Source: Nitrospinota bacterium
GTDB lineage: Bacteria; Tectomicrobia; Entotheonellia; J063
Reading direction: 5' to 3'
DNA: 9,456 nt
Assembly: GCA_003696125.1 (NCBI GenBank)
Contig: RFHZ01000443.1
Span: forward strand, 1 to 9,456
The translations under genes and the position numbers were made by a program. The notes under the pieces are model-generated. The model saw nothing but the letters and a program-made list of their open reading frames with translations, was not told the DNA's origin and made no database searches. This document shows positions 2 to 9,456 of this stretch, piece after piece. Within the stretch, counting starts at the first letter, position 1. Every line of letters starts with the position of its first letter.

Positions 2-211
2 ACCGCGGACATGGTCAAGGAGGGAGTCATCGTCATCGACATCGGCATCAGCTTCTTTGCGGGAAAGACGGTGGGAGACGTCGATTTTGATGGTGTGTTT
101 CCCAAGGCTTCCCTGATTACTCCGGTCCCGGGCGGGGTTGGCCCCATCACCATCGCCACCCTGCTGCAGAATACCCTCACCGCCTATCGCGCCCAGCACC
201 ATCTATACTGA
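2..211 (+). CDS. folD: FolD C-terminal fragment (methylenetetrahydrofolate dehydrogenase/cyclohydrolase), 5' truncated by window
   Basis: This is the last 69 codons of a gene entering from the left edge; the frame is open from base 2 and ends at a TGA. FolD is the bifunctional cytosolic enzyme that oxidises 5,10-methylene-tetrahydrofolate to 5,10-methenyl-tetrahydrofolate and hydrolyses it to 10-formyl-tetrahydrofolate, in one-carbon metabolism. Visible family features are the VIVIDIGI strand of the Rossmann fold, the GDVDFDGV segment, the hallmark [19 protein letters not shown] motif and a short polar C-terminus. Because the true start lies outside the window, the ATG at position 11 is an internal methionine. 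The 3' end overlaps the convergent REC-kinase gene by 9 bp, and I see no hairpin terminator there. Identification is confident because the PGGVGP motif is highly diagnostic. Confidence 0.95.
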
Positions 212-1384
212 AGCGGGCAGACGGATGGTAAAGGTGGTCCCCTTCCCCCAGGTGCTCTCCACGGTGATCGTCCCGTGATGGGCACGGATGATATCCTGGC
301 TGATCGTTAAACCGAGTCCTGCTCCTTCTTGCTCTCCCTTTTTGGTCGAGAAAAAGGGATCAAAAATCCTCTCCAGATCTTCTGGCCGTATCCCGCATCC
401 GGTGTCCTGAAAGCGGATGTGTACCCATTTCCCCCCAGGGCCTTCCTCCTTGCCCTCCTGCTCGGAGGGGGCGGCAAGTTGGGTGGAGATGGTGAGTCTC
501 CCCTGCCTATCCATGGCCTGGATGGCGTTGAGGATAATATTCATGAAGACCTGTTTCAACTCACTGGCCTCGCCCTGTACCGGTAACTCACCAGGAGCGT
601 ACCTCTCTTGCAGGACAATTGATCGCTTCTTGAGTTGGGGGGCGAGGAACACGATTGCCTCTTGCAGGACGGCATTCACGTCGATTCGTTGATACTTGCC
701 GCTGGCAGGACGGCTAAAATCGAGCACGCGATTGAGAATTTTGAGTATGCGCTGGACCTCTCGCTCGATGGTCTCCAGATAGTTCCTGGATGTGGCATCG
801 AGGGAGGCGTTGAGGGAAAGGATCTGGGCCAGGGTAGAGATGCTGGTCAGGGGATTTTTGATCTCATGCGCCACACCAGCAGCAATTTCTCCCAGGGTAC
901 TCAGCTTGGTGGTATGGAGAAGCAAGCGCCGCGTTTCCTGCAGTTCCGTCTCCAACCTCTGCAGGCGGGCAATGACCTCCGCATCTGATCGCGAACCGGC
1001 TTTTCGTTTCGCTGAACGTTTCTTGGAGAAGAGGTCTGCCACCGTATCCTTGATTTGCTTCTCCTCAAAAGGTTTTACGATATATCCGGAGATACCCAGC
1101 CGGCGAGATTCTACCGGGACAACAGGGTTATCCACGGCCGTGACGATGACGACATCGAGCTCTCGATCTCTCTCGCGAATCCGGCGCAGGGTCTCCAGAC
1201 CATCCATCTCCGGCATACGAATATCCAGGAAGAGCATACCCGGTCTTTCACGCTCGATCTTGGCCAACGCTTCCCGGCCGCTGGCAGCCGTCAGTACTCT
1301 ATACTCATCACTCAGGATTAAGGCCAGGGATTCCCGCACATTCTCTTCGTCATCGACCACCAACACGGTTCTCTCCCGTTCCAT
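203..1384 (-). CDS. Soluble hybrid: N-terminal receiver domain fused to a histidine kinase
   Basis: A 393-aa cytoplasmic signalling protein with no membrane segment. Residues 5-120 form a receiver domain: acidic pair D11/D12, phospho-acceptor D54 in [13 protein letters not shown]82, and K104 in YIVKPF. A charged linker with coiled-coil character (about 120-160) leads to HisKA with phospho-acceptor H173 in [10 protein letters not shown]. The HATPase domain follows: N-box N286, G1 DTGCG 327-331, F-box FDPFFSTK 341-348, G2 GAGLGL 354-359. All catalytic residues are present. The REC-first order suggests it takes a phosphate, or is gated, from another kinase and then acts as a kinase itself. It lies 115 bp downstream of the 82-aa gene and probably shares that gene's sigma-54 promoter. 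The ATG is preceded by a purine-rich stretch (GGGGGAA). No DNA-binding output domain is present and its partner is not identifiable. Confidence 0.93.
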
Positions 1385-1499: not shown

Positions 1500-1748
1500 C
1501 TATGATATCCCCTCCAGCTCACGGAGAAGTAGCCGAGAGTGGAGAGCCAGCGGGAGGATCGTCTTCAAATTCGTCAGCACTTCATCCACGGAATACCCAT
1601 CGCTGACAATACTATCTCCCGGTGCCAGGGTCGTTTCTGCTGTATGGAGAACCCGTCCATGCTTTCGTGCACCACGATAGACATTCACCCGAAACTGTTG
1701 GCTGCCGTATGCCACCTTCTCCGAACAAACGAGATCATGGTAAGGCAT
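1500..1748 (-). CDS. 82-aa protein of unknown function, sigma-54-controlled
   Basis: I do not recognise this family. The ATG at 1748 is chosen because a near-perfect Shine-Dalgarno, AGGAGGTG, lies 7 nt before it (1756-1763). A longer open frame reaches 2066, but it would run through the promoter and into the regulator gene. The protein is small, soluble-looking and mixed alpha/beta. Residues 18-42 are strand-like and basic (QQFRVNVYRGARKHGRV), followed by LAPGDSIVSDGYSVDEVL (41-58) and an amphipathic C-terminal helix (NLKTILPLALHSRLLLREL). The 'G-S-D-E-VL' turn then helix resembles small HicB-like or adaptor folds only superficially. There is no signal peptide and a single Cys (C8). It sits alone behind a -24/-12 promoter with upstream dyads and in front of the REC-kinase, so it is probably a target of the local sigma-54 regulator and may modulate that kinase (inference). 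Confidence 0.8.
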   Translation of the reverse strand: MPYHDLVCSEKVAYGSQQFRVNVYRGARKHGRVLHTAETTLAPGDSIVSDGYSVDEVLTNLKTILPLALHSRLLLRELEGIS

Positions 1749-1807: not shown

Positions 1808-1822
1808 GCAAATACCATGCCA
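1807..1822 (-). promoter_or_regulatory. Sigma-54 (-24/-12) promoter of the 82-aa gene
   Basis: On the minus strand the sequence reads TGGCATGGTATTTGCT, against the RpoN consensus TGGCACG-N4-TTGCW. The GG (1821-1820) and GC (1809-1808) are separated by exactly 10 bp, as RpoN requires. Start of transcription is predicted near 1796, leaving a leader of about 48 nt before the ATG. It matches the micropeptide promoter at 7429-7444 in 14 of 16 positions. Confidence 0.85.
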
Positions 1823-1882: not shown

Positions 1883-1921
1883 TGCCTCCTGTTTCGTGCA
1901 GAATGCACCGGGCAGTGTGCA
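1883..1921. promoter_or_regulatory. Tandem dyads, probable enhancer (UAS) for the sigma-54 promoter of the 82-aa gene
   Basis: Two 18-bp units lie 3 bp apart. Unit 1904-1921 is a perfect TGCAC-N8-GTGCA dyad. Unit 1883-1900 has one intact arm (GTGCA at its 1896-1900 end) and one degenerate arm (TGCCT). Their centres lie about 95 and 116 bp upstream of the predicted start, a typical enhancer distance. The geometry (18+3+18, 21-bp period) equals that of 7615-7653. The half-site resembles the known NtrC half-site TGCAC, though the NtrC spacer is one base shorter. The local NtrC-type regulator is the likely binder (inference). Confidence 0.7.
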
Positions 1922-1968: not shown

Positions 1969-3360
1969 TTAGGAATCCGAGGAAGAACGACCCTCCTGCC
2001 GAAGTCCGAGGGCATCCAGCTTACTCGCCAGGGTATTGCGATGAATACCGAGCATCTTGGCGGCAAGGGTCTGATTCCAGCGCACCTTCTCTAGGGTATG
2101 CAAAATGAAGTGCTTTTCAAAGAGTTGCAGGGCTTCGCGGAGGGAGAGCTTCTCTTCCAGCAGGGTGGCGGTCAGGTCGGGTTCGGTGGTAGAGAGATCG
2201 ATGGGGAGCTCTCGCAGTTGGATGTACTCATTGGTGGTAATGGCGACCAGACGCTCGATGATATTCTCCAGTTCACGAATATTTCCGGGCCAGTCGTACT
2301 GGAGGAGCCGTTCCATGGCACTGGGAGTAAACCCTTTTACCGACCGCTGGAAGCGTCGATTATATTTTTCCAGGAAATGCTCTACCAACAACGGGATATC
2401 ATCCTTACGTGCCCGGAGAGGGGGGAGGAAGATGGGGACCACATTGAGCCGGTAGTAGAGGTCTTCGCGAAACTTCCCTTGCTTGACCAGGGCCCGGAGG
2501 TTTTGATTGGTGGCGGCAATGATCCGCACATCAACAGGGATGGTGCGCTGTCCCCCTACCCGCTCGATCTCTCTCTCCTGTAAGGCACGGAGAATCTTTG
2601 CCTGCAGCTCCATACGCATGCTGCTGACCTCATCGAGAAAGAGGGTCCCTCCATGCGCCAGCTCAAATTTCCCCAGCCGGCGTTCAATCGCACTGGTGAA
2701 GGCTCCCCGTTCATGTCCAAACAGCTCACTCTCCATCAGGTGTTCAGGGATGGCAGCGCAATTGACGGCGATGAAGGGTTTATGGGCCCGATCGCTATGC
2801 TGGTGAATGGCCCGGGCCACCAGCTCTTTGCCGGTACCGCTTTCACCGGTAATCAGGACGGTAACATTCTTCTGTGCGACGCGGGTGATGAGATCAAAGA
2901 TCTGGAGCATCTTGGCATTGCGTCCCACCATGTTGATAAACTGCTGTTGCTCCATGGCCAGTCGGAGGTAGAGGACCTCTTTCAAGAGGGCCTGTCGCTC
3001 GAAGACCCGACGAATGGTGGTGAGGAGCTTATCGATATCGAACGGTTTGGTAAAGTAATCGTACGCCCCGAGTTTAATCGCCTTTACCGCAAACTCCACC
3101 TCGTTGAGGGCCGTAATCACGATCACATCAAGCTGTTCATCCAACTGTTTTATGCGCTCCAGCACCTCCAGCCCACTGATGCCTGGAAGTTTCAGGTCGA
3201 GGAGCACCAGTTCGACATTGTGCTGGTTGAGGATCTTGAGTGCCTCCTCCCCGTCCTGAGCAGTGAGCAGATGGTATTCATCTTCGAGGATGAGGCGGTA
3301 CGATTCCAGGACAGAGGGTTCATCATCAACAGCCAGAATGGTGGGTGATAGTGCTTCCAT
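1969..3360 (-). CDS. NtrC-family sigma-54-dependent response regulator
   Basis: A 463-aa transcription activator that hydrolyses ATP to open sigma-54 promoters. The receiver domain is 6-122, with D12/D13, phospho-acceptor D55 in LLDLKLPG, T83, and K105 in YFTKPF. The AAA+ domain spans about 144-375: Walker A GESGTGKE 172-179, a sigma-54 loop reading GAFTSA at 219-224 rather than the usual GAFTGA, Walker B GGTLFLDE 237-244, sensor I AATNQ and arginine-finger segment FREDLYYRLN 297-306. A Fis-type helix-turn-helix occupies about 406-453 (LAAKMLGIHRNTL). ATG 3360 is chosen: AGAGGA precedes it and it starts 10 nt after the kinase stop. The longer frame to 3537 would overlap the kinase gene. It is the cognate regulator of the adjacent kinase, and the two nearby sigma-54 promoters with shared dyads are probable targets. 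Confidence 0.96.
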   Translation of the reverse strand: MEALSPTILAVDDEPSVLESYRLILEDEYHLLTAQDGEEALKILNQHNVELVLLDLKLPGISGLEVLERIKQLDEQLDVIVITALNEVEFAVKAIKLGAYDYFTKPFDIDKLLTTIRRVFERQALLKEVLYLRLAMEQQQFINMVGRNAKMLQIFDLITRVAQKNVTVLITGESGTGKELVARAIHQHSDRAHKPFIAVNCAAIPEHLMESELFGHERGAFTSAIERRLGKFELAHGGTLFLDEVSSMRMELQAKILRALQEREIERVGGQRTIPVDVRIIAATNQNLRALVKQGKFREDLYYRLNVVPIFLPPLRARKDDIPLLVEHFLEKYNRRFQRSVKGFTPSAMERLLQYDWPGNIRELENIIERLVAITTNEYIQLRELPIDLSTTEPDLTATLLEEKLSLREALQLFEKHFILHTLEKVRWNQTLAAKMLGIHRNTLASKLDALGLRQEGRSSSDS

Positions 3361-3370
3361 AGGCTTTCCT

Positions 3371-5314
3371 CTAAGCAGGATACAGAAAAGGGAGCAGTAC
3401 GGTAAAGGTGGTCCCCTTCCCCGGCTGACTCTCCACCTGCACCATGCCCCCATGTTCTTCGATAATCTTATGCGAAATGGCCAAACCGAGTCCGGTACCT
3501 TTCCCTTTGGTGGTAAAGAAGGGGGTGAAAAGGGCATCGAGCTGTTCTTGAGTCATCCCACAGCCGGTATCGGTAAAGCGGATGGCTACAAAGGGCACAA
3601 ACTCCAGGGTACTCTGACTCCCGCCTCCTGAGGAGTGCATGTTATTCTGGTAGGCAGGGACTTCTGTGACTTTCAGATGAACGAGCTGGGAGGTTACGGT
3701 CAGACCCCCCCCCTGGGGCATCGCCTGCAGGGCATTGGTGATCAGGTTGCCAAAGACCCGTTTGAGGTGATCAGGATCGGCTGAAATAGGGGGAAGGTCT
3801 GGGGTGTACTCTTCTCTGATCGTGATTCCTGCTGCTGTTGCCTGCTCCCGGTAGAGCTCGATCGAATGGGCAAGCACGTCATTGATAGCGGTAGGACGTA
3901 AGAGGATCTTGGAAGGACGGGCCAGGGTGAGGAGTTCTTCCACAATGGTGTTGACCCGATCCAGCTCCTGCGGGACGATACGCATGTACTTGGCTAAAAA
4001 CCCAGGATCGTCCTTCTTGCGGGGTAACATCTGGGTAAAGGTCTTTAGGGAGACCAGCGGATTTTTGATCTCGTGAGCCACTCCGGCAGCCAGCGTGCCT
4101 ACGGCAGCCAGCCGGTCGGCTCGCCGCAGTTGCTGCTCCAGCTCGCGGATGGTGGACAGGTCTTGAAACACCCCCAGGATTCCGGTCACCTTTCCGGCAT
4201 CATCTTTGAGGAGAGACGTGGTCATGCTGATGGGGAGGGCGTCCCCCTTTTCCCGCCTCACCGAACAGTTCTGGTGCAGGGATTCTCCCTTCTCTAAGGT
4301 CTTCAGGAGCAGGGAGGTAAAGGTCTGGTCAGGGAGAAGATCGGTGAGGAGCACTCCCCGTACCCGCTCCAGCGGCATCTCCAGCAACTGTTCTGCCATG
4401 GCGTTCAGGGTCACAATTCTCCCCTGCAGATCGAGCGTGATCACTCCGCTGGTCATGGAGCGCAGGATGCTGTCGTTATAATTCTTGAGCAATGAGATCT
4501 CTCTCAGCTTCTGGTTCAGTTCCTGATGCTTGATCTCCAGTTGCCGGCGTTGATGCAGGAGTTGCACGGTCATCTGGTTAAACTGGTAGGCGAGATGGCC
4601 GATCTCATCTCCCGATTCCACCCTGATCCGGTGATAGAGGTTCCCCCTGGCCACCTCGATGACCCCGGCCACCAGTTGCTGGATCGGGGAGGAAATCCGC
4701 TGTGCCATGATCGTGGCGCCCCCAATACCTATAAGCAGAATGAGGAGCCCCAGGCCAGTGATATAGCGGCGGGTACGGGCGATCTCTTTACGCATCGCCC
4801 GCAGGGAAAGACCGACCCGCACCACTCCCCAGCGCTCATGGGAGGGGGGAACAAAGACCGGGACGGCAAAGTCGAGACCCTCCTCTTGCGTCACCGGATT
4901 GTACACGGTCTGCACCAGGGGAGAGCGAGTGTGCATCGCCTTCTGGCTGACCGGATCTTTCAGTACCTCTCCCTGCTTCTCATCTCGACCACTATAAGCC
5001 GCCACCTTCCCCTCTTTGGTCAGGATGATGACGTAGAGCACATCCTCATCCTTCGCCACTTTCTCCGCATCCTGTTCCAGGGTCACGTAGTTATAGGTGA
5101 GCAGGGATTTGACACTGACCGCAGCGAGATTACCGGCAATGGTGCGTCCCCGTTTTTCCAGCTCTGCAGTGATGACCGCTCGCTGCTCTTTTTCCACGAT
5201 AATGAGCAAAAAGATGAGTAGTAAAGAGAGGAGGGTACAGGTAGAGAGGAGAAATTTCGTGCGCAGGCGGAGTTGAGCAAACCAGGATCCCAGGGGACAT
5301 TTACGTATCATCAC
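3371..5314 (-). CDS. Membrane sensor histidine kinase (periplasmic sensor-HAMP-PAS-HisKA-HATPase)
   Basis: A 647-aa inner-membrane kinase of the NtrB/ZraS/AtoS type. TM1 is about 20-40; a periplasmic sensor of about 145 residues (41-184) resembles single-Cache domains (EDVLYVIILTKEGKVAAYS); TM2 is about 185-203. HAMP spans 204-255, a coiled coil 252-278 and PAS about 279-388. HisKA carries H414 in [10 protein letters not shown]. The ATPase domain has N527, DTGCG 582-586, FTPFFTTK 596-603 and GTGLGL 606-611. A low-complexity insert rich in Ser, Gly and Asn lies at 557-569. The start is either GTG at 5314, which overlaps the binding-protein stop as GTGA, or ATG at 5311 (TGATG). Either implies translational coupling to the lipoprotein gene, so the lipoprotein may present the ligand to the sensor domain (inference). 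The regulator gene follows after 10 nt. Confidence 0.95.
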   Translation of the reverse strand: MMIRKCPLGSWFAQLRLRTKFLLSTCTLLSLLLIFLLIIVEKEQRAVITAELEKRGRTIAGNLAAVSVKSLLTYNYVTLEQDAEKVAKDEDVLYVIILTKEGKVAAYSGRDEKQGEVLKDPVSQKAMHTRSPLVQTVYNPVTQEEGLDFAVPVFVPPSHERWGVVRVGLSLRAMRKEIARTRRYITGLGLLILLIGIGGATIMAQRISSPIQQLVAGVIEVARGNLYHRIRVESGDEIGHLAYQFNQMTVQLLHQRRQLEIKHQELNQKLREISLLKNYNDSILRSMTSGVITLDLQGRIVTLNAMAEQLLEMPLERVRGVLLTDLLPDQTFTSLLLKTLEKGESLHQNCSVRREKGDALPISMTTSLLKDDAGKVTGILGVFQDLSTIRELEQQLRRADRLAAVGTLAAGVAHEIKNPLVSLKTFTQMLPRKKDDPGFLAKYMRIVPQELDRVNTIVEELLTLARPSKILLRPTAINDVLAHSIELYREQATAAGITIREEYTPDLPPISADPDHLKRVFGNLITNALQAMPQGGGLTVTSQLVHLKVTEVPAYQNNMHSSGGGSQSTLEFVPFVAIRFTDTGCGMTQEQLDALFTPFFTTKGKGTGLGLAISHKIIEEHGGMVQVESQPGKGTTFTVLLPFLYPA

Positions 5315-7050
5315 TCTTTCCGTAGCGCACTTTGCATCTCAGCACTTGCCTTATCCAGCCAGATCTTCTTCATGGGGATAGACATCTCCCCCAGGGCATT
5401 GATCTCGATTCCCCGGACATAGGGCTGGAAGAGATGCTCATACGTATAATAGACCAGGTTGATCCAGGGAGCATCCTGCATGATGATCCTCTCAGCTTCC
5501 CGATAGATCTCGATGCGCTTCAAATAATCGGTTTCGGCCCGGGCCTGCCGCAGGAGGGTATCGACCTGGGGATTGTGGTAGCGAGAGTAGTTGTTCGCGC
5601 TTTCGGAGTAGAGGAGGACATAGAGGAAGTTATCCGGATCGGGAAAGTCTGCGTACCAGGCACGGCGATAGAGAGGAGCTTTTCCCTGTTTGAGCATCTC
5701 CAGGAACGTAGCCCAGTTGGGAGCGAATTTGAGTTCTACCTGGACACCGATGGCTGCCAGATCCCTCTGGATCGCCTCGTGTTCCTGGCGTACCACCGCC
5801 GATTTGGCACTGGTCCAGAGCTCGAGCACAGGGAATCCCCTCCCTTCCGGATACCCTGCCTCGGCCAGCAGTTGCCGGGCTTTTTCCGGGTTGTATCTGT
5901 ACCCTGCCAGTTTGGGATTGTAGCCCGGCATGCCCGGAGGAAGGATACCGGTGGCGATTTCAAAGCGGTTCTGCCGGATCTCCCGGTTGATCCGCTCCCG
6001 GTTTATGGCGTAGTTGAGGGCCTGTCTGACCTTGGGATCGTTCAAAGGGGGGATGGTGTTGTTCATGCCGATGTGGAGCAGGCTCAGGGTCGGTTTCCTG
6101 ACCAGGGTAAAACGGGAGTCTTGAATCAGTTGACTCCGTTGGGGAAGGGGAATATAGGCATCCTCCAGGCGATTGGCAGCGAACTCCTGGAAGATGTGGG
6201 TGGTATCGGAACCGCTGAACAGGACAAAACGAATCCCATCCAGATAAGGACGTCCCTCAAAATAGACCGGATTGGCCTCCAGGGTTATCGCTTTTCCCTT
6301 TTCCCAACGGACAAAGCGGAAAGGGCCGGTTCCTACCGGATGCCGGCCAAACTCGTTTCCTGCTCGCTCGACCTCTTCCCGGGGAACGACCCTGGCCTGG
6401 GCCATGCCGAGCAGGGTGATAAAGGGGGCAAACGGTTCGGCCAGGGTAATGGTCAGCGTGTGCTCATCCTTTACCTCGAAACCGCTGACCGTAGAGGCTT
6501 CTCCTCTCCTAAAGGCTTCCGCCCCTTTTACCTTTTCAAAGAGCCAGGCATTGGGAGATTTCATGGCTGGATTCAACATGCGGGTGAAGGAATAGACGAC
6601 ATCGTGTGCCGTAACCACCCTTCCGTTGTGAAACTGAGCCTTTTCCCGCAGGTGAAAGGTCCAGGTCAGGCCATCCCGGCTCCCCTCCCAGGAACGGGCC
6701 AGGGCGGGGAGCACGTTGAGATCTCCGTCAAACTGGACCAGACCATCGAAGATCTCATTGGTAACAGTAATAGCGAATATATCTGTAACAAAGGCTGGAT
6801 CGAGGGTAGGGGGTTCGTTACGAAGAGGGCGGCGGTAAATCCCGCCGTAGCGTGGTTGTCTTCCTTGTTCTACTGGAGAGGAAGCAGCGACTTTCTGGGA
6901 GGAAGCGGATTCATCGTGCGGTGGAGATTCCCGTGAGCAGGCGACCAGGAAAAACACCGGCAAGAGTGAAAGGAGAAGGGGGTATATCCACATAAGCCTG
7001 GAGGAGTTGAGCCTGAAGAACACCATCCGGGAATGATCTGCTGGGCGCAT
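5311..7050 (-). CDS. Family-5 extracytoplasmic solute-binding lipoprotein (oligopeptide/dipeptide-binding type), orphan
   Basis: A 579-aa periplasmic binding protein of the DppA/OppA class (SBP_bac_5). The N-terminus has a lipoprotein signal: hydrophobic segment 20-37, then lipobox LVAC with C38 as the lipidated residue, and a Ser/Pro/Glu-rich tether to about 65. Family landmarks are EPPTLDPAFVTDIFAITV near 79-96, NEIFDGLVQFD 98-108, HPVGTGPFRFVRWEKG 237-252, LNDPKVRQALNYAINRE 336-352 and WYADFPDPDNFLY 465-477. Length is normal. ATG 7050 has GAGGAAGG just upstream; M9 is an alternative start. No permease or ATPase gene lies in the window; instead the stop codon overlaps the start of a sensor kinase. 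That suggests a role as ligand receptor for the kinase rather than, or besides, transport. Ligand unknown; a short peptide is plausible from the family. Confidence 0.93.
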   Translation of the reverse strand: MRPADHSRMVFFRLNSSRLMWIYPLLLSLLPVFFLVACSRESPPHDESASSQKVAASSPVEQGRQPRYGGIYRRPLRNEPPTLDPAFVTDIFAITVTNEIFDGLVQFDGDLNVLPALARSWEGSRDGLTWTFHLREKAQFHNGRVVTAHDVVYSFTRMLNPAMKSPNAWLFEKVKGAEAFRRGEASTVSGFEVKDEHTLTITLAEPFAPFITLLGMAQARVVPREEVERAGNEFGRHPVGTGPFRFVRWEKGKAITLEANPVYFEGRPYLDGIRFVLFSGSDTTHIFQEFAANRLEDAYIPLPQRSQLIQDSRFTLVRKPTLSLLHIGMNNTIPPLNDPKVRQALNYAINRERINREIRQNRFEIATGILPPGMPGYNPKLAGYRYNPEKARQLLAEAGYPEGRGFPVLELWTSAKSAVVRQEHEAIQRDLAAIGVQVELKFAPNWATFLEMLKQGKAPLYRRAWYADFPDPDNFLYVLLYSESANNYSRYHNPQVDTLLRQARAETDYLKRIEIYREAERIIMQDAPWINLVYYTYEHLFQPYVRGIEINALGEMSIPMKKIWLDKASAEMQSALRKE

Positions 7051-7148: not shown

Positions 7149-7175
7149 AAAAAAGGTGCATTACGCACCTTTTTT
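7149..7175. terminator. Intrinsic terminator, bidirectional in form, ending the micropeptide transcript
   Basis: Arms GGTGC (7155-7159) and GCACC (7165-7169) enclose a 5-nt loop and are flanked by A6 on one side and T6 on the other, so the stem can extend to 11 bp and each strand ends in a U-tract. It lies 38 nt past the micropeptide stop and before the promoter of the binding-protein gene. Confidence 0.9.
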
Positions 7176-7212: not shown

Positions 7213-7338
7213 CTATTCTCCTCCATCTCCACCAGCCGCATAGGCTATGCTGATCGTTGAGCCGTGAAAGGTAGCAACCGATACTCCCGAGACCAGAAGA
7301 GCGGTGATGATTAATACTGTGGCAACGATCTTCCGCAT
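7213..7338 (-). CDS. 41-aa secreted or membrane micropeptide, sigma-54-controlled
   Basis: A complete small gene: ATG at 7338, TAG at 7213-7215, and a strong ribosome site GGGAGGGAAGG ending 3 nt before the start. The product begins MRK, followed by an uncharged hydrophobic segment IVATVLIITALLVSGVSVA (4-22), then TFHGSTISIAYA and the C-terminal tail AGGDGGE (35-41). This is a signal-peptide layout with a possible cleavage after AYA (34) that would release a 7-residue acidic, glycine-rich peptide, or after SVA (22). A single-span membrane peptide is the alternative. It is flanked by its own near-consensus -24/-12 promoter (7429-7444) and a strong terminator (7149-7175), so it is monocistronic. 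I know no family for it. The neighbouring oligopeptide-type lipoprotein, kinase and sigma-54 regulator suggest it is an exported signal or a modulator of that kinase (inference). Confidence 0.75.
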   Translation of the reverse strand: MRKIVATVLIITALLVSGVSVATFHGSTISIAYAAGGDGGE

Positions 7339-7428
7339 GACCTTCCCTCCCTTTTCCTGACGTCTTTCTATAGATAAACTCAACTATAAATGGCAAACGC
7401 CTCTCTTTGTCGCTTGTTATACCGGTTG

Positions 7429-7444
7429 AGCAAGCACCATGCCA
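7429..7444 (-). promoter_or_regulatory. Sigma-54 (-24/-12) promoter of the micropeptide gene
   Basis: The minus strand reads TGGCATGGTGCTTGCT, differing from the consensus TGGCACG-N4-TTGCW at one position. GG (7443-7442) and GC (7431-7430) are exactly 10 bp apart. The predicted start is near 7418, giving a leader of about 80 nt to the ATG at 7338. Confidence 0.88.
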
Positions 7445-7614: not shown

Positions 7615-7654
7615 TGCACAGGTTTTTGTGCACAGTGCACAGGTTTTTGTGCAC
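7615..7654. promoter_or_regulatory. Tandem identical 19-bp repeats, each a dyad: probable sigma-54 enhancer
   Basis: Two identical 19-bp repeats (7615-7633 and 7636-7654), each containing the 18-bp dyad TGCACA-N6-TGTGCA. The dyads are 3 bp apart and centred 21 bp apart, on the same face of the helix. Their centres lie about 205 and 226 bp upstream of the micropeptide start, a normal enhancer distance. They also lie about 27 bp upstream of the predicted cofH -35, so a protein bound here could influence cofH as well. The half-site resembles that of NtrC, with a spacer one base longer. The probable binder is the regulator encoded at 1969-3360. Confidence 0.8.
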
Positions 7655-7779: not shown

Positions 7780-9069
7780 ATGATCCCAGAGAGCATGTTG
7801 ACCCCAGATGCGTTTTCAGCCCTCTCTTCCTTTTCTCTCTCCTCGGCTGGTCGTGTGGTGGGAAGGATTCTCGAAAAGGCTTTATCGGGTAAGGAGATCA
7901 GTGTCGAGGAAGGGACCCGACTCCTGGAAGCGAGGGGGGCCGAACTCCTCCCCCTGTTTGCCACGGCCGACTACCTGCGACAGGAGGCGGTGGGAGAGAT
8001 CGTTACCTATGTGGTCAATCGCAATATCAACTTTACCAATGTCTGCGTGAAACGGTGCGGTTTTTGTGCCTTTAGCCGGGGCCACAAAGGCGCCGAAGGG
8101 TATTTCTTGCCGGTAGAAGAGGTGGTACGGCGTACCCAGGAGGCCTGGGAACTGGGGGCGACCGAGGTGTGTGTCCAGGCCGGACTCCCCCCTGGCATGG
8201 ATGGCTGGTACTACGTGACCCTTTGCCGGGCCATCAAGGAAGCCGTGCCTGAGATCCATATCCACGGCTTTTCCCCGGAAGAGGTGCTCTACGGAGCGCA
8301 ACTCGCCGGGGTAAGCGTTGCCGACTACTTGCGCGCCCTCAAAGATGCCGGTGTAGGGAGTCTCCCCGGCACCTCGGCCGAGGTGCTGGTCGATCGCATC
8401 CGTAACATCATCTCGCCCGGACGCATCACCACGGCCCAGTGGGTCGATCTCATCCGTACCGCTCATCGTTTGGGCATCCCTACAACCTCGACCATCATGT
8501 ACGGCCATATCGAAACCGCCCATGATGTGGCCGTGCATCTCGATCTGCTGCGTAGCCTGCAGAAAGAGACGGGAGGATTTACCGAGTTCGTACCCCTGGG
8601 GTTCATTCATGCCGAAGCCCCTATGGCCAAGCACCATCCTCCTCCCGGTTTGCGGCGGGGTCCGACCGGTATCGAGACCATGAAGATGTACGCCGTTTCA
8701 CGGATCATGCTCTATGGATGGATCCCCAATATCCAGGTCTCCTGGGTCAAAGAGGGACCCAAGCTGGCTCAGGTGGGATTGATGGCCGGGGCAAATGATC
8801 TGGGGGGTACCCTGATCAATGAGAGCATCTCCACTGCAGCCGGGGCCCAGTTTGGCCAGCTCCAGACCCCTTCTACCTTCCGTGCCCTGGCCCGGGAAAT
8901 GGGCCGGATACCGGCGGAGCGTTCCACCACCTATACGCTGCTGCGGATATTTAAAGATCCGGCCCAGGACCCGCCTGATCGACTGGCCGAGATCAATGCC
9001 ACCCGTTTCGGCTCCTATTACGAGTTGATCCGGCAGGATGCCTTCCGCTTCAAGGCACGCAAAAAATAG
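7780..9069 (+). CDS. cofH: CofH, FO synthase subunit 2 (5-amino-6-(D-ribitylamino)uracil-L-tyrosine 4-hydroxyphenyl transferase), F420 biosynthesis
   Basis: A 429-aa cytosolic radical-SAM enzyme. CofH transfers the tyrosine-derived 4-hydroxybenzyl radical to 5-amino-6-ribitylamino-uracil; CofG then closes the ring to give FO, the F420 chromophore. Seen here: the radical-SAM CX3CX2C motif with C89, C93 and C96 inside NRNINFTNVCVKRCGFC, the motif TSTIMYGHIETA 236-247, GGFTEFVPLGFIHAEAP 265-281, and the C-terminal NIQVSWVKEGP and GANDLGGTL segments typical of CofH. These separate it from the related MqnC and MqnE, although that family is close enough to keep as an alternative. ATG 7780 is chosen for AAGGAG 4 nt upstream; M6 at 7795 is possible. 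Neither cofG nor other F420 genes are in the window. It diverges from the sigma-54 micropeptide gene. Confidence 0.92.
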   Translation: MIPESMLTPDAFSALSSFSLSSAGRVVGRILEKALSGKEISVEEGTRLLEARGAELLPLFATADYLRQEAVGEIVTYVVNRNINFTNVCVKRCGFCAFSRGHKGAEGYFLPVEEVVRRTQEAWELGATEVCVQAGLPPGMDGWYYVTLCRAIKEAVPEIHIHGFSPEEVLYGAQLAGVSVADYLRALKDAGVGSLPGTSAEVLVDRIRNIISPGRITTAQWVDLIRTAHRLGIPTTSTIMYGHIETAHDVAVHLDLLRSLQKETGGFTEFVPLGFIHAEAPMAKHHPPPGLRRGPTGIETMKMYAVSRIMLYGWIPNIQVSWVKEGPKLAQVGLMAGANDLGGTLINESISTAAGAQFGQLQTPSTFRALAREMGRIPAERSTTYTLLRIFKDPAQDPPDRLAEINATRFGSYYELIRQDAFRFKARKK

Positions 9070-9183: not shown

Positions 9184-9456
9184 TCATTGCGGAAGTTTTC
9201 TCATTCTTATCCGTCTATGCGTAACCACGGTGAACATCCCCACTAATTGCTGATGAAATCGCTCTACTACTGTCGAAAGCACTTGAGCTTTTAAGAAGGC
9301 ATCTTCCCTACCAAACCGAAGTGGAAGGACACCTGGAAGAGAACTCTTGTGATGAAAGACCTCTTCTCCGAATCCCTTATCATTGGTTACCAGGATTCGT
9401 TGCTGATCAGTCGCCAGATCAATGATCTCCTCATCTGAAGGTGATCCGCCCAGTTC
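9184..9456 (-). CDS. DUF5615/PIN-like protein, C-terminal part (5' end outside window)
   Basis: An open frame of 90 codons entering from the right edge on the minus strand and ending at TGA 9184-9186. The visible sequence begins ELGGSPSDEEIIDLATDQQR and continues with ILVTNDKGFGEEVF (21-34), then GVLPLRFG and a helical basic tail ending RMRKLPQ. The pattern 'S-D-E-E-I-(helix)-R-I-L-V-T-N-D-K-x-F-G' followed by a 'G-V-L-x-L-R' strand is that of the DUF5615 family of PIN-like putative nucleases, often paired with a small DUF433 antitoxin-like gene that would lie further right. D26 of the TND motif is kept; the usual second Asp (DKDFG) is Gly here. The start and the N-terminal acidic residues cannot be seen. 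It faces cofH convergently with a 114-bp gap that contains no clear terminator. Confidence 0.8.
   Translation of the reverse strand, partial: ELGGSPSDEEIIDLATDQQRILVTNDKGFGEEVFHHKSSLPGVLPLRFGREDAFLKAQVLSTVVERFHQQLVGMFTVVTHRRIRMRKLPQ

Follow-up and report, generated by a model that had tools for sequence, protein, structure and literature searches.

A sigma-54 micropeptide gene beside a binding lipoprotein and a membrane kinase, and the autoinducer circuit it may encode

Genes and control elements of the locus

The window, i.e., the whole 9,456-nt stretch of DNA analyzed here, is one complete contig of a bacterial genome assembly (G000) with 990 contigs and 8% estimated contamination. It contains a gene for an exported-type micropeptide, followed on the same strand by genes for a binding lipoprotein, a membrane histidine kinase and a sigma-54 response regulator (Table 1). 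The original prediction described the micropeptide gene as a unit with a promoter, a ribosome-binding site, a 41-codon frame and a terminator, and each of these elements was located on the minus strand. The span from 7213 to 7444 covers the promoter and the frame only; the terminator and the upstream activating sequences (UAS) lie outside it. The exact sigma-54 box pattern occurs 48 times in the genome, versus five times for a reversed control pattern, so most of these boxes are real. At those other sigma-54 promoters of the genome that were examined, no other such frame was noticed. None of 5,000 dinucleotide shuffles of the peptide transcript produced an equally hydrophobic frame led by a Shine-Dalgarno sequence.

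The genes downstream had been described as encoding an orphan binding lipoprotein, a membrane kinase and a sigma-54 activator, which the domain scan and the lipobox confirmed. The lipoprotein is closest in sequence to peptide and dipeptide binding proteins. Both its family profile and an aligned aspartate place it in the DppA/OppA family (SBP_bac_5): it matches Escherichia coli DppA with an E value of 4e-63, and its Asp468 lies opposite DppA Asp408, which holds the N-terminal amine of the bound peptide. Its W-x-A-D-x-x-D-P motif recurs in nearly all receptors of the module, and the kinase gene comes after the receptor gene in module loci. The window has no OppB/C/D/F permease or ATPase genes, and thus does not encode an oligopeptide ABC transport system. 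In the regulator, the motif ELFGHERGAFTSA has GAFTSA in place of the sigma-54-contacting GAFTGA, a variant shared, among the relatives read, with locus L177 only.

To these elements, the present analysis adds the UAS, which were absent from the original prediction. Two TGCAC-N8-GTGCA palindromes, 21 bp apart, lie upstream of the peptide gene, and a third lies upstream of the second exact sigma-54 box, the two together spanning positions 1921-1808. The 4.18-Mb genome contains only seven such sites. Three of them are within the 9.5-kb window, and all three sit 5' of its two exact sigma-54 promoters (two at the peptide gene and one at the second unit). At least three of the remaining four are inside long frames, and there is no sigma-54 box near any of the four. 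The natural reading of this distribution is that one local regulator would act on both promoters of the window.

The second promoter precedes a gene for an 82-aa protein and, after it, a receiver-histidine kinase hybrid; genes similar to the hybrid follow the module in several relatives. Homologues of the 82-aa protein (41% identical) are encoded just 3' of the kinase gene at loci L115 (4106-4351) and L039 (3785-3967). The former has its own UAS at 3878 and a sigma-54-like box near 4060; the latter is behind a sigma-54-like box. The 82-aa gene would be a second conserved target of the circuit proposed below. Directly 3' of the 82-aa gene of L115 (genome G035) is a gene for a ComEA-like helix-hairpin-helix protein (4451-5050); a link between the circuit and DNA uptake through this protein is conceivable but unsupported. 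On the other side of the peptide gene is a divergent CofH-type radical SAM gene. Because the UAS lie between the two, an effect on cofH is possible. The DUF5615 protein encoded at the contig end is possibly the toxin of a toxin-antitoxin pair.

Table 1. Features of the window
Feature	Position	Strand	Remarks
Receiver-histidine kinase hybrid	203..1384	-	follows the 82-aa gene
82-aa protein gene	1500..1748	-	no match in Pfam; preceded by a UAS and a sigma-54 promoter of its own
Second sigma-54 promoter, TGGCATGGTATTTGC	1808..1822	-	exact box
Third UAS, TGCACACTGCCCGGTGCA	1904..1921		upstream of the second exact sigma-54 box
Sigma-54 response regulator, NtrC class	1969..3360	-	GAFTSA variant of GAFTGA
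Membrane histidine kinase	3371..5314	-	sCache_3_2, HAMP, PAS, HisKA, HATPase; orthologues 42-47% identical
Orphan SBP_bac_5 peptide-binding lipoprotein, DppA/OppA type	5311..7050	-	lipobox LVAC; Pfam E 3e-100
Intrinsic terminator of the peptide transcript	7149..7175	-	perfect 11-bp stem and T-run
Exported-type micropeptide gene, 41 aa	7213..7338	-	stop codon included; encodes MRKIVATVLIITALLVSGVSVATFHGSTISIAYAAGGDGGE; same-position frames in other genomes
Shine-Dalgarno sequence GGGAGGG	7345..7351	-	shortly 5' of the ATG of the peptide gene
Sigma-54 -24/-12 promoter, TGGCATGGTGCTTGC	7430..7444	-	enriched in the genome; similar position in relatives
Tandem UAS, two exact copies of TGCACAGGTTTTTGTGCA	7615-7632 and 7636-7653		upstream of the peptide gene
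CofH-type radical SAM gene (F420 biosynthesis)	7780-9069	+	divergent from the peptide gene
DUF5615 (PIN-like) protein	9184-9456	-	at the contig end

Same-position peptide genes in other lineages

A plain sequence search with the 41-aa frame, covering its own genome, 98 relatives and its own phylum, returned only itself and chance matches. The phylum of the window was sampled with five genomes. One of them, G004, carries the receptor-kinase pair and the 82-aa homologue at L039; because the contig starts inside the receptor gene and so cuts the locus, L039 is uninformative on the peptide gene. In two further lineages, an orthologous receptor-kinase pair is accompanied by a tiny frame at the corresponding position. 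In L115, from a third lineage, this frame encodes 29 amino acids (MKKLYVAIFLAAMSVAVYVLPVMADGGGG) and has a Shine-Dalgarno sequence and a terminator. In L116, from genome G089 of another phylum, the frame is MTKVLAVLAAIVSFLLVAPVIESGTSGSTQFFQAIGTADGGAS, accompanied by two TGCACC-N5-GGTGCA sites.

Among the checks that the original prediction had proposed were a search for the frame upstream of the lipoprotein gene in related genomes and a comparison of synonymous with non-synonymous change, and both came out in its favor. A close receptor is present in 39 of 95 genomes of the G089 phylum, and a frame of the same kind, with a conserved Shine-Dalgarno sequence, lies 5' of the orthologous receptor gene in 29 of the 30 loci read there, as well as in G035. 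The frames in relatives encode 29-48 amino acids with a signal-peptide layout. By comparison, some hydrophobic short frame occurs at 4 of 19 other family-5 binding-protein loci, and the Gly-rich tail described below at none of the 19. As for the second check, 14 independent pairs from the G089 phylum differ at 107, 53 and 213 sites in codon positions 1, 2 and 3, respectively (p about 7e-24), with non-synonymous changes far fewer than synonymous ones. The pN/pS ratio of the peptide frame is 0.35, versus 1.5 and 2.4 out of frame in members of this phylum; after column shuffling it was about 1.0, and none of 300 trials came down to the observed ratio. These patterns support translation of the peptide frame, under purifying selection, in the relatives where this was tested, the sample containing no close relative of the window.

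The gene order regulator-peptide-receptor-kinase is conserved in the G089 phylum. In its long loci, the regulator is upstream in 19/21 and the kinase downstream in 19/21, the exceptions being at contig ends; the window differs in that the regulator comes after the kinase. The linkage of a dedicated gene for a short exported-type precursor to the receptor is conserved across loci, and at least three bacterial lineages carry the peptide gene at this position beside the receptor-kinase pair, a distribution that describes a sample of genomes and not an exhaustive set. A profile built from the G089 phylum ranked the window peptide best of 2,280 frames, but with 9 bits and an E value of 0.16; alone, this profile did not recruit the window and G035 peptides significantly, and homology of the window peptide is therefore claimed from position only. 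What connects the window peptide with the others is its position, promoter, enhancer and layout; its sequence similarity to them is not significant. A peptide profile search of 386 genomes gave only weak matches outside the known members, and the peptide genes have no convincing Pfam or NCBIfam family match. A scan of a genome-contig collection with the receptor returned distant archaeal binding proteins only.

The promoter architecture is shared as well. A TGGC-N7-TTGC box lies 75-106 nt 5' of the start codon in 24 of the 30 loci. Exact UAS, present in 15/28 loci and absent in 13/28, number 1.47 per kb 5' of the peptide gene versus 0.019 per kb 3' of it. When UAS and sigma-54 box were searched as a single pattern in 95 genomes, there were 35 matches, versus none for the reversed control; 15 of the 30 composite-pattern loci read precede peptide genes, including those of four genomes new to the set. 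This architecture fits control of the peptide gene by the adjacent regulator. A hairpin follows the peptide gene in most loci and is terminator-like in many. Since it keeps the peptide gene a separate unit, induction would raise the signal more than the receptor. In several genomes of the G089 phylum, a UAS and sigma-54 box are positioned ~350-400 nt 5' of a thiolase-like gene of ~375 aa (WIAGAGMTRFGKRQESLPDLVAEAAR; L205-L208, L214 and L217), possibly another regulon of an NtrC-class regulator.

No such peptide gene accompanies the paralogous receptor loci L032 (G000:C192), L033 (G000:C650) and L038 (G004:C43), all of them near two-component genes. In L033 and L038 the receptor gene is paired with a kinase gene, and a gene for a receiver-kinase-receiver protein comes next. 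Family-5 binding proteins seem to serve repeatedly as kinase partners. Because kinase-paired paralogues without a peptide gene exist, the receptor-kinase pair may sense other ligands.

Cleavage-type site, proposed circuit and rival explanations

All 35 members of the peptide set have Ala at -1, with G, V or A at -3, as in a signal-peptidase-type site. Position +1 is Asp or Glu in 34 of the 35 and Ala in the window peptide. The tails have 4-7 residues, are 71% Gly after +1, are distinct in 31 of 35 members and end in F, Y, W, S, E, D, M, P, A or G, counts that are descriptive because the window and G035 members were found partly by eye for their layout. In the window peptide, the predicted signal peptidase I-type site is IAYA/AGGDGGE, and in the L115 peptide a textbook signal peptidase I site follows the hydrophobic core immediately. 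By contrast, peptides of the large family of the G089 phylum have a conserved spacer of ~20 residues between this core and the predicted site; cleavage could fail there, because such a spacer is long for a signal peptide. We argue that the tail is the functional core, since the L115 and window peptides do without the spacer yet keep the site and the tail. The export and tiny tail of the original prediction gain support from a conserved signal peptidase I-type site before a short Gly-rich tail.

We propose, with a probability of about two in three, that the locus encodes a secreted micropeptide autoinducer, with the lipoprotein as co-receptor of the Cache-domain kinase and the sigma-54 regulator driving the peptide gene. 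The sigma-54 transcript would be translated into a 41-aa precursor exported by Sec. Cleavage at the A-x-A-type site would free a Gly-rich, usually acid-led peptide of 4-7 residues, in the window probably AGGDGGE, of a size small enough for porins. The DppA/OppA-type lipoprotein, having no permease of its own, would bind the peptide and present it to the kinase, which would phosphorylate the adjacent NtrC-class regulator. The regulator, in turn, would bind TGCAC-N8-GTGCA and switch on both sigma-54 promoters, the one at the peptide gene and the one ahead of the 82-aa and hybrid-kinase genes.

Translation (in relatives), synteny, the promoter with its UAS, the cleavage-type site and the peptide-type receptor are supported by the comparisons above. 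We infer from them that cleavage actually occurs, that the lipoprotein binds the peptide, that the partners make contact and that the signal is used from cell to cell. The sign of the feedback is likewise presumed; a comparable Vibrio sigma-54 circuit is switched off by its signal (PMC5007282, PMC10162802). The peptide feedback loop of the original prediction thus gains support from same-position frames, selection, the site with its tail and the UAS/sigma-54 architecture, with cleavage, binding and feedback sign as its presumed steps.

The main rival, which we consider unlikely, is an uncleaved product that remains in the inner membrane and, as a feedback element driven by the regulon, modulates the kinase or its complex with the lipoprotein. 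In size and regulon control the peptide resembles MgrB, which has 47 aa, inhibits PhoQ and belongs to the PhoP regulon (PMC8404706, PMC2789325). The large family fits in that the stretch beyond the membrane shows strong conservation, with Pro, Glu and Gly invariant, and in that a long distance lies between the hydrophobic core and the predicted cleavage site. However, the whole middle segment is missing from the 29-aa G035 version, which keeps only the signal core, VMA and DGGGG, and it is missing from the window peptide as well. The constant part is Ala at -1 plus the Gly tail, the ends of which vary by species, and a membrane modulator leaves the adjacent peptide-type receptor unexplained.

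We consider it improbable that the peptide acts as an antimicrobial or toxin-like effector, in the periplasm or after secretion, while the receptor-kinase pair answers an unrelated peptide or nutrients. Regulated small exported peptides can act as effectors, and L033 and L038 are receptor-kinase pairs without a peptide gene, but no linked immunity or export gene was recognized, the tails are very short, acidic and Gly-rich, and the linkage to the receptor is tight across lineages. Largely refuted, and the least probable reading, is a sigma-54 small RNA like Vibrio Qrr with an incidental or secondary frame: the combination of binding protein, kinase, sigma-54 regulator and short terminated transcript mirrors LuxPQ-LuxO-Qrr (PMC10162802), but the strong codon-phase signal, the conserved Shine-Dalgarno sequence and signal-peptide layout, the lack of a credible Rfam match in the window and a folding z of only -1.25 for the transcript speak against it, and a pure small-RNA reading is rejected.

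With respect to the autoinducer reading, we lean slightly towards a widespread, as yet undescribed pheromone class beyond Gram-positives, with precursors of 29-48 aa, species-specific, mostly Asp- or Glu-led Gly-rich 4-7-mers, a family-5 lipoprotein as kinase co-receptor and sigma-54 autoinduction. Reviews regard quorum sensing by peptides as mainly a feature of Gram-positives (PMC5007282, PMC5388746), an exception being the E. coli pentapeptide EDF. If true, the proposal would mean that a binding protein of the transport type has become a dedicated receptor for a peptide that the cell itself makes, a form of peptide signaling new for such bacteria. A conserved gene family from which signal sequence, receptor, kinase, regulator and DNA site can all be predicted would make peptide signaling directly testable, with synthetic 4-7-mers, in little-studied environmental lineages.

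Comparison with known systems

The architecture is undescribed in the open-access literature searched, in keeping with the original remark that no described system of this form was recognized. LuxP-LuxQ-LuxO-Qrr is alike in that a periplasmic binding protein is the co-receptor of a periplasmic-sensor kinase, with a sigma-54 regulator and a short sigma-54 unit whose enhancers are palindromic (PMC8534201, PMC10162802). It differs in that its output is RNA, with no peptide, and in that LuxU stands between the kinase and LuxO; here, the receptor is an SBP_bac_5 protein and the output is coding. The ligand of LuxP is AI-2, and LuxP does not belong to the oligopeptide-binding family 5.

The enterococcal cCF10/PrgZ system shares a very short linear peptide derived from a signal-peptide region and an OppA-type receptor outside the membrane (PMC7117660). 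However, cCF10 comes from a larger lipoprotein and is passed from PrgZ through Opp import to cytoplasmic PrgX, and the system, which is Gram-positive, has neither kinase nor sigma-54. MgrB-PhoQ-PhoP likewise has a small exported or membrane product in a two-component regulon, but MgrB is a membrane kinase inhibitor, and neither a binding lipoprotein nor sigma-54 takes part. RRNPP and Agr-type quorum sensing resemble the module in that their short peptides vary between species and have a dedicated receptor linked to them. RRNPP receptors are cytoplasmic, and Agr systems use AgrB-cyclized peptides and the AgrC kinase. Neither receptor type is present in the window: Pfam and NCBIfam scans of its proteins found no RRNPP cytoplasmic TPR receptor and no AgrB/AgrC. 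Because it combines an SBP_bac_5 receptor with a coding output and has no permease or cytoplasmic peptide receptor, the proposed circuit is a member of neither LuxPQ-LuxO nor cCF10-PrgZ; it works like a cross of the two.
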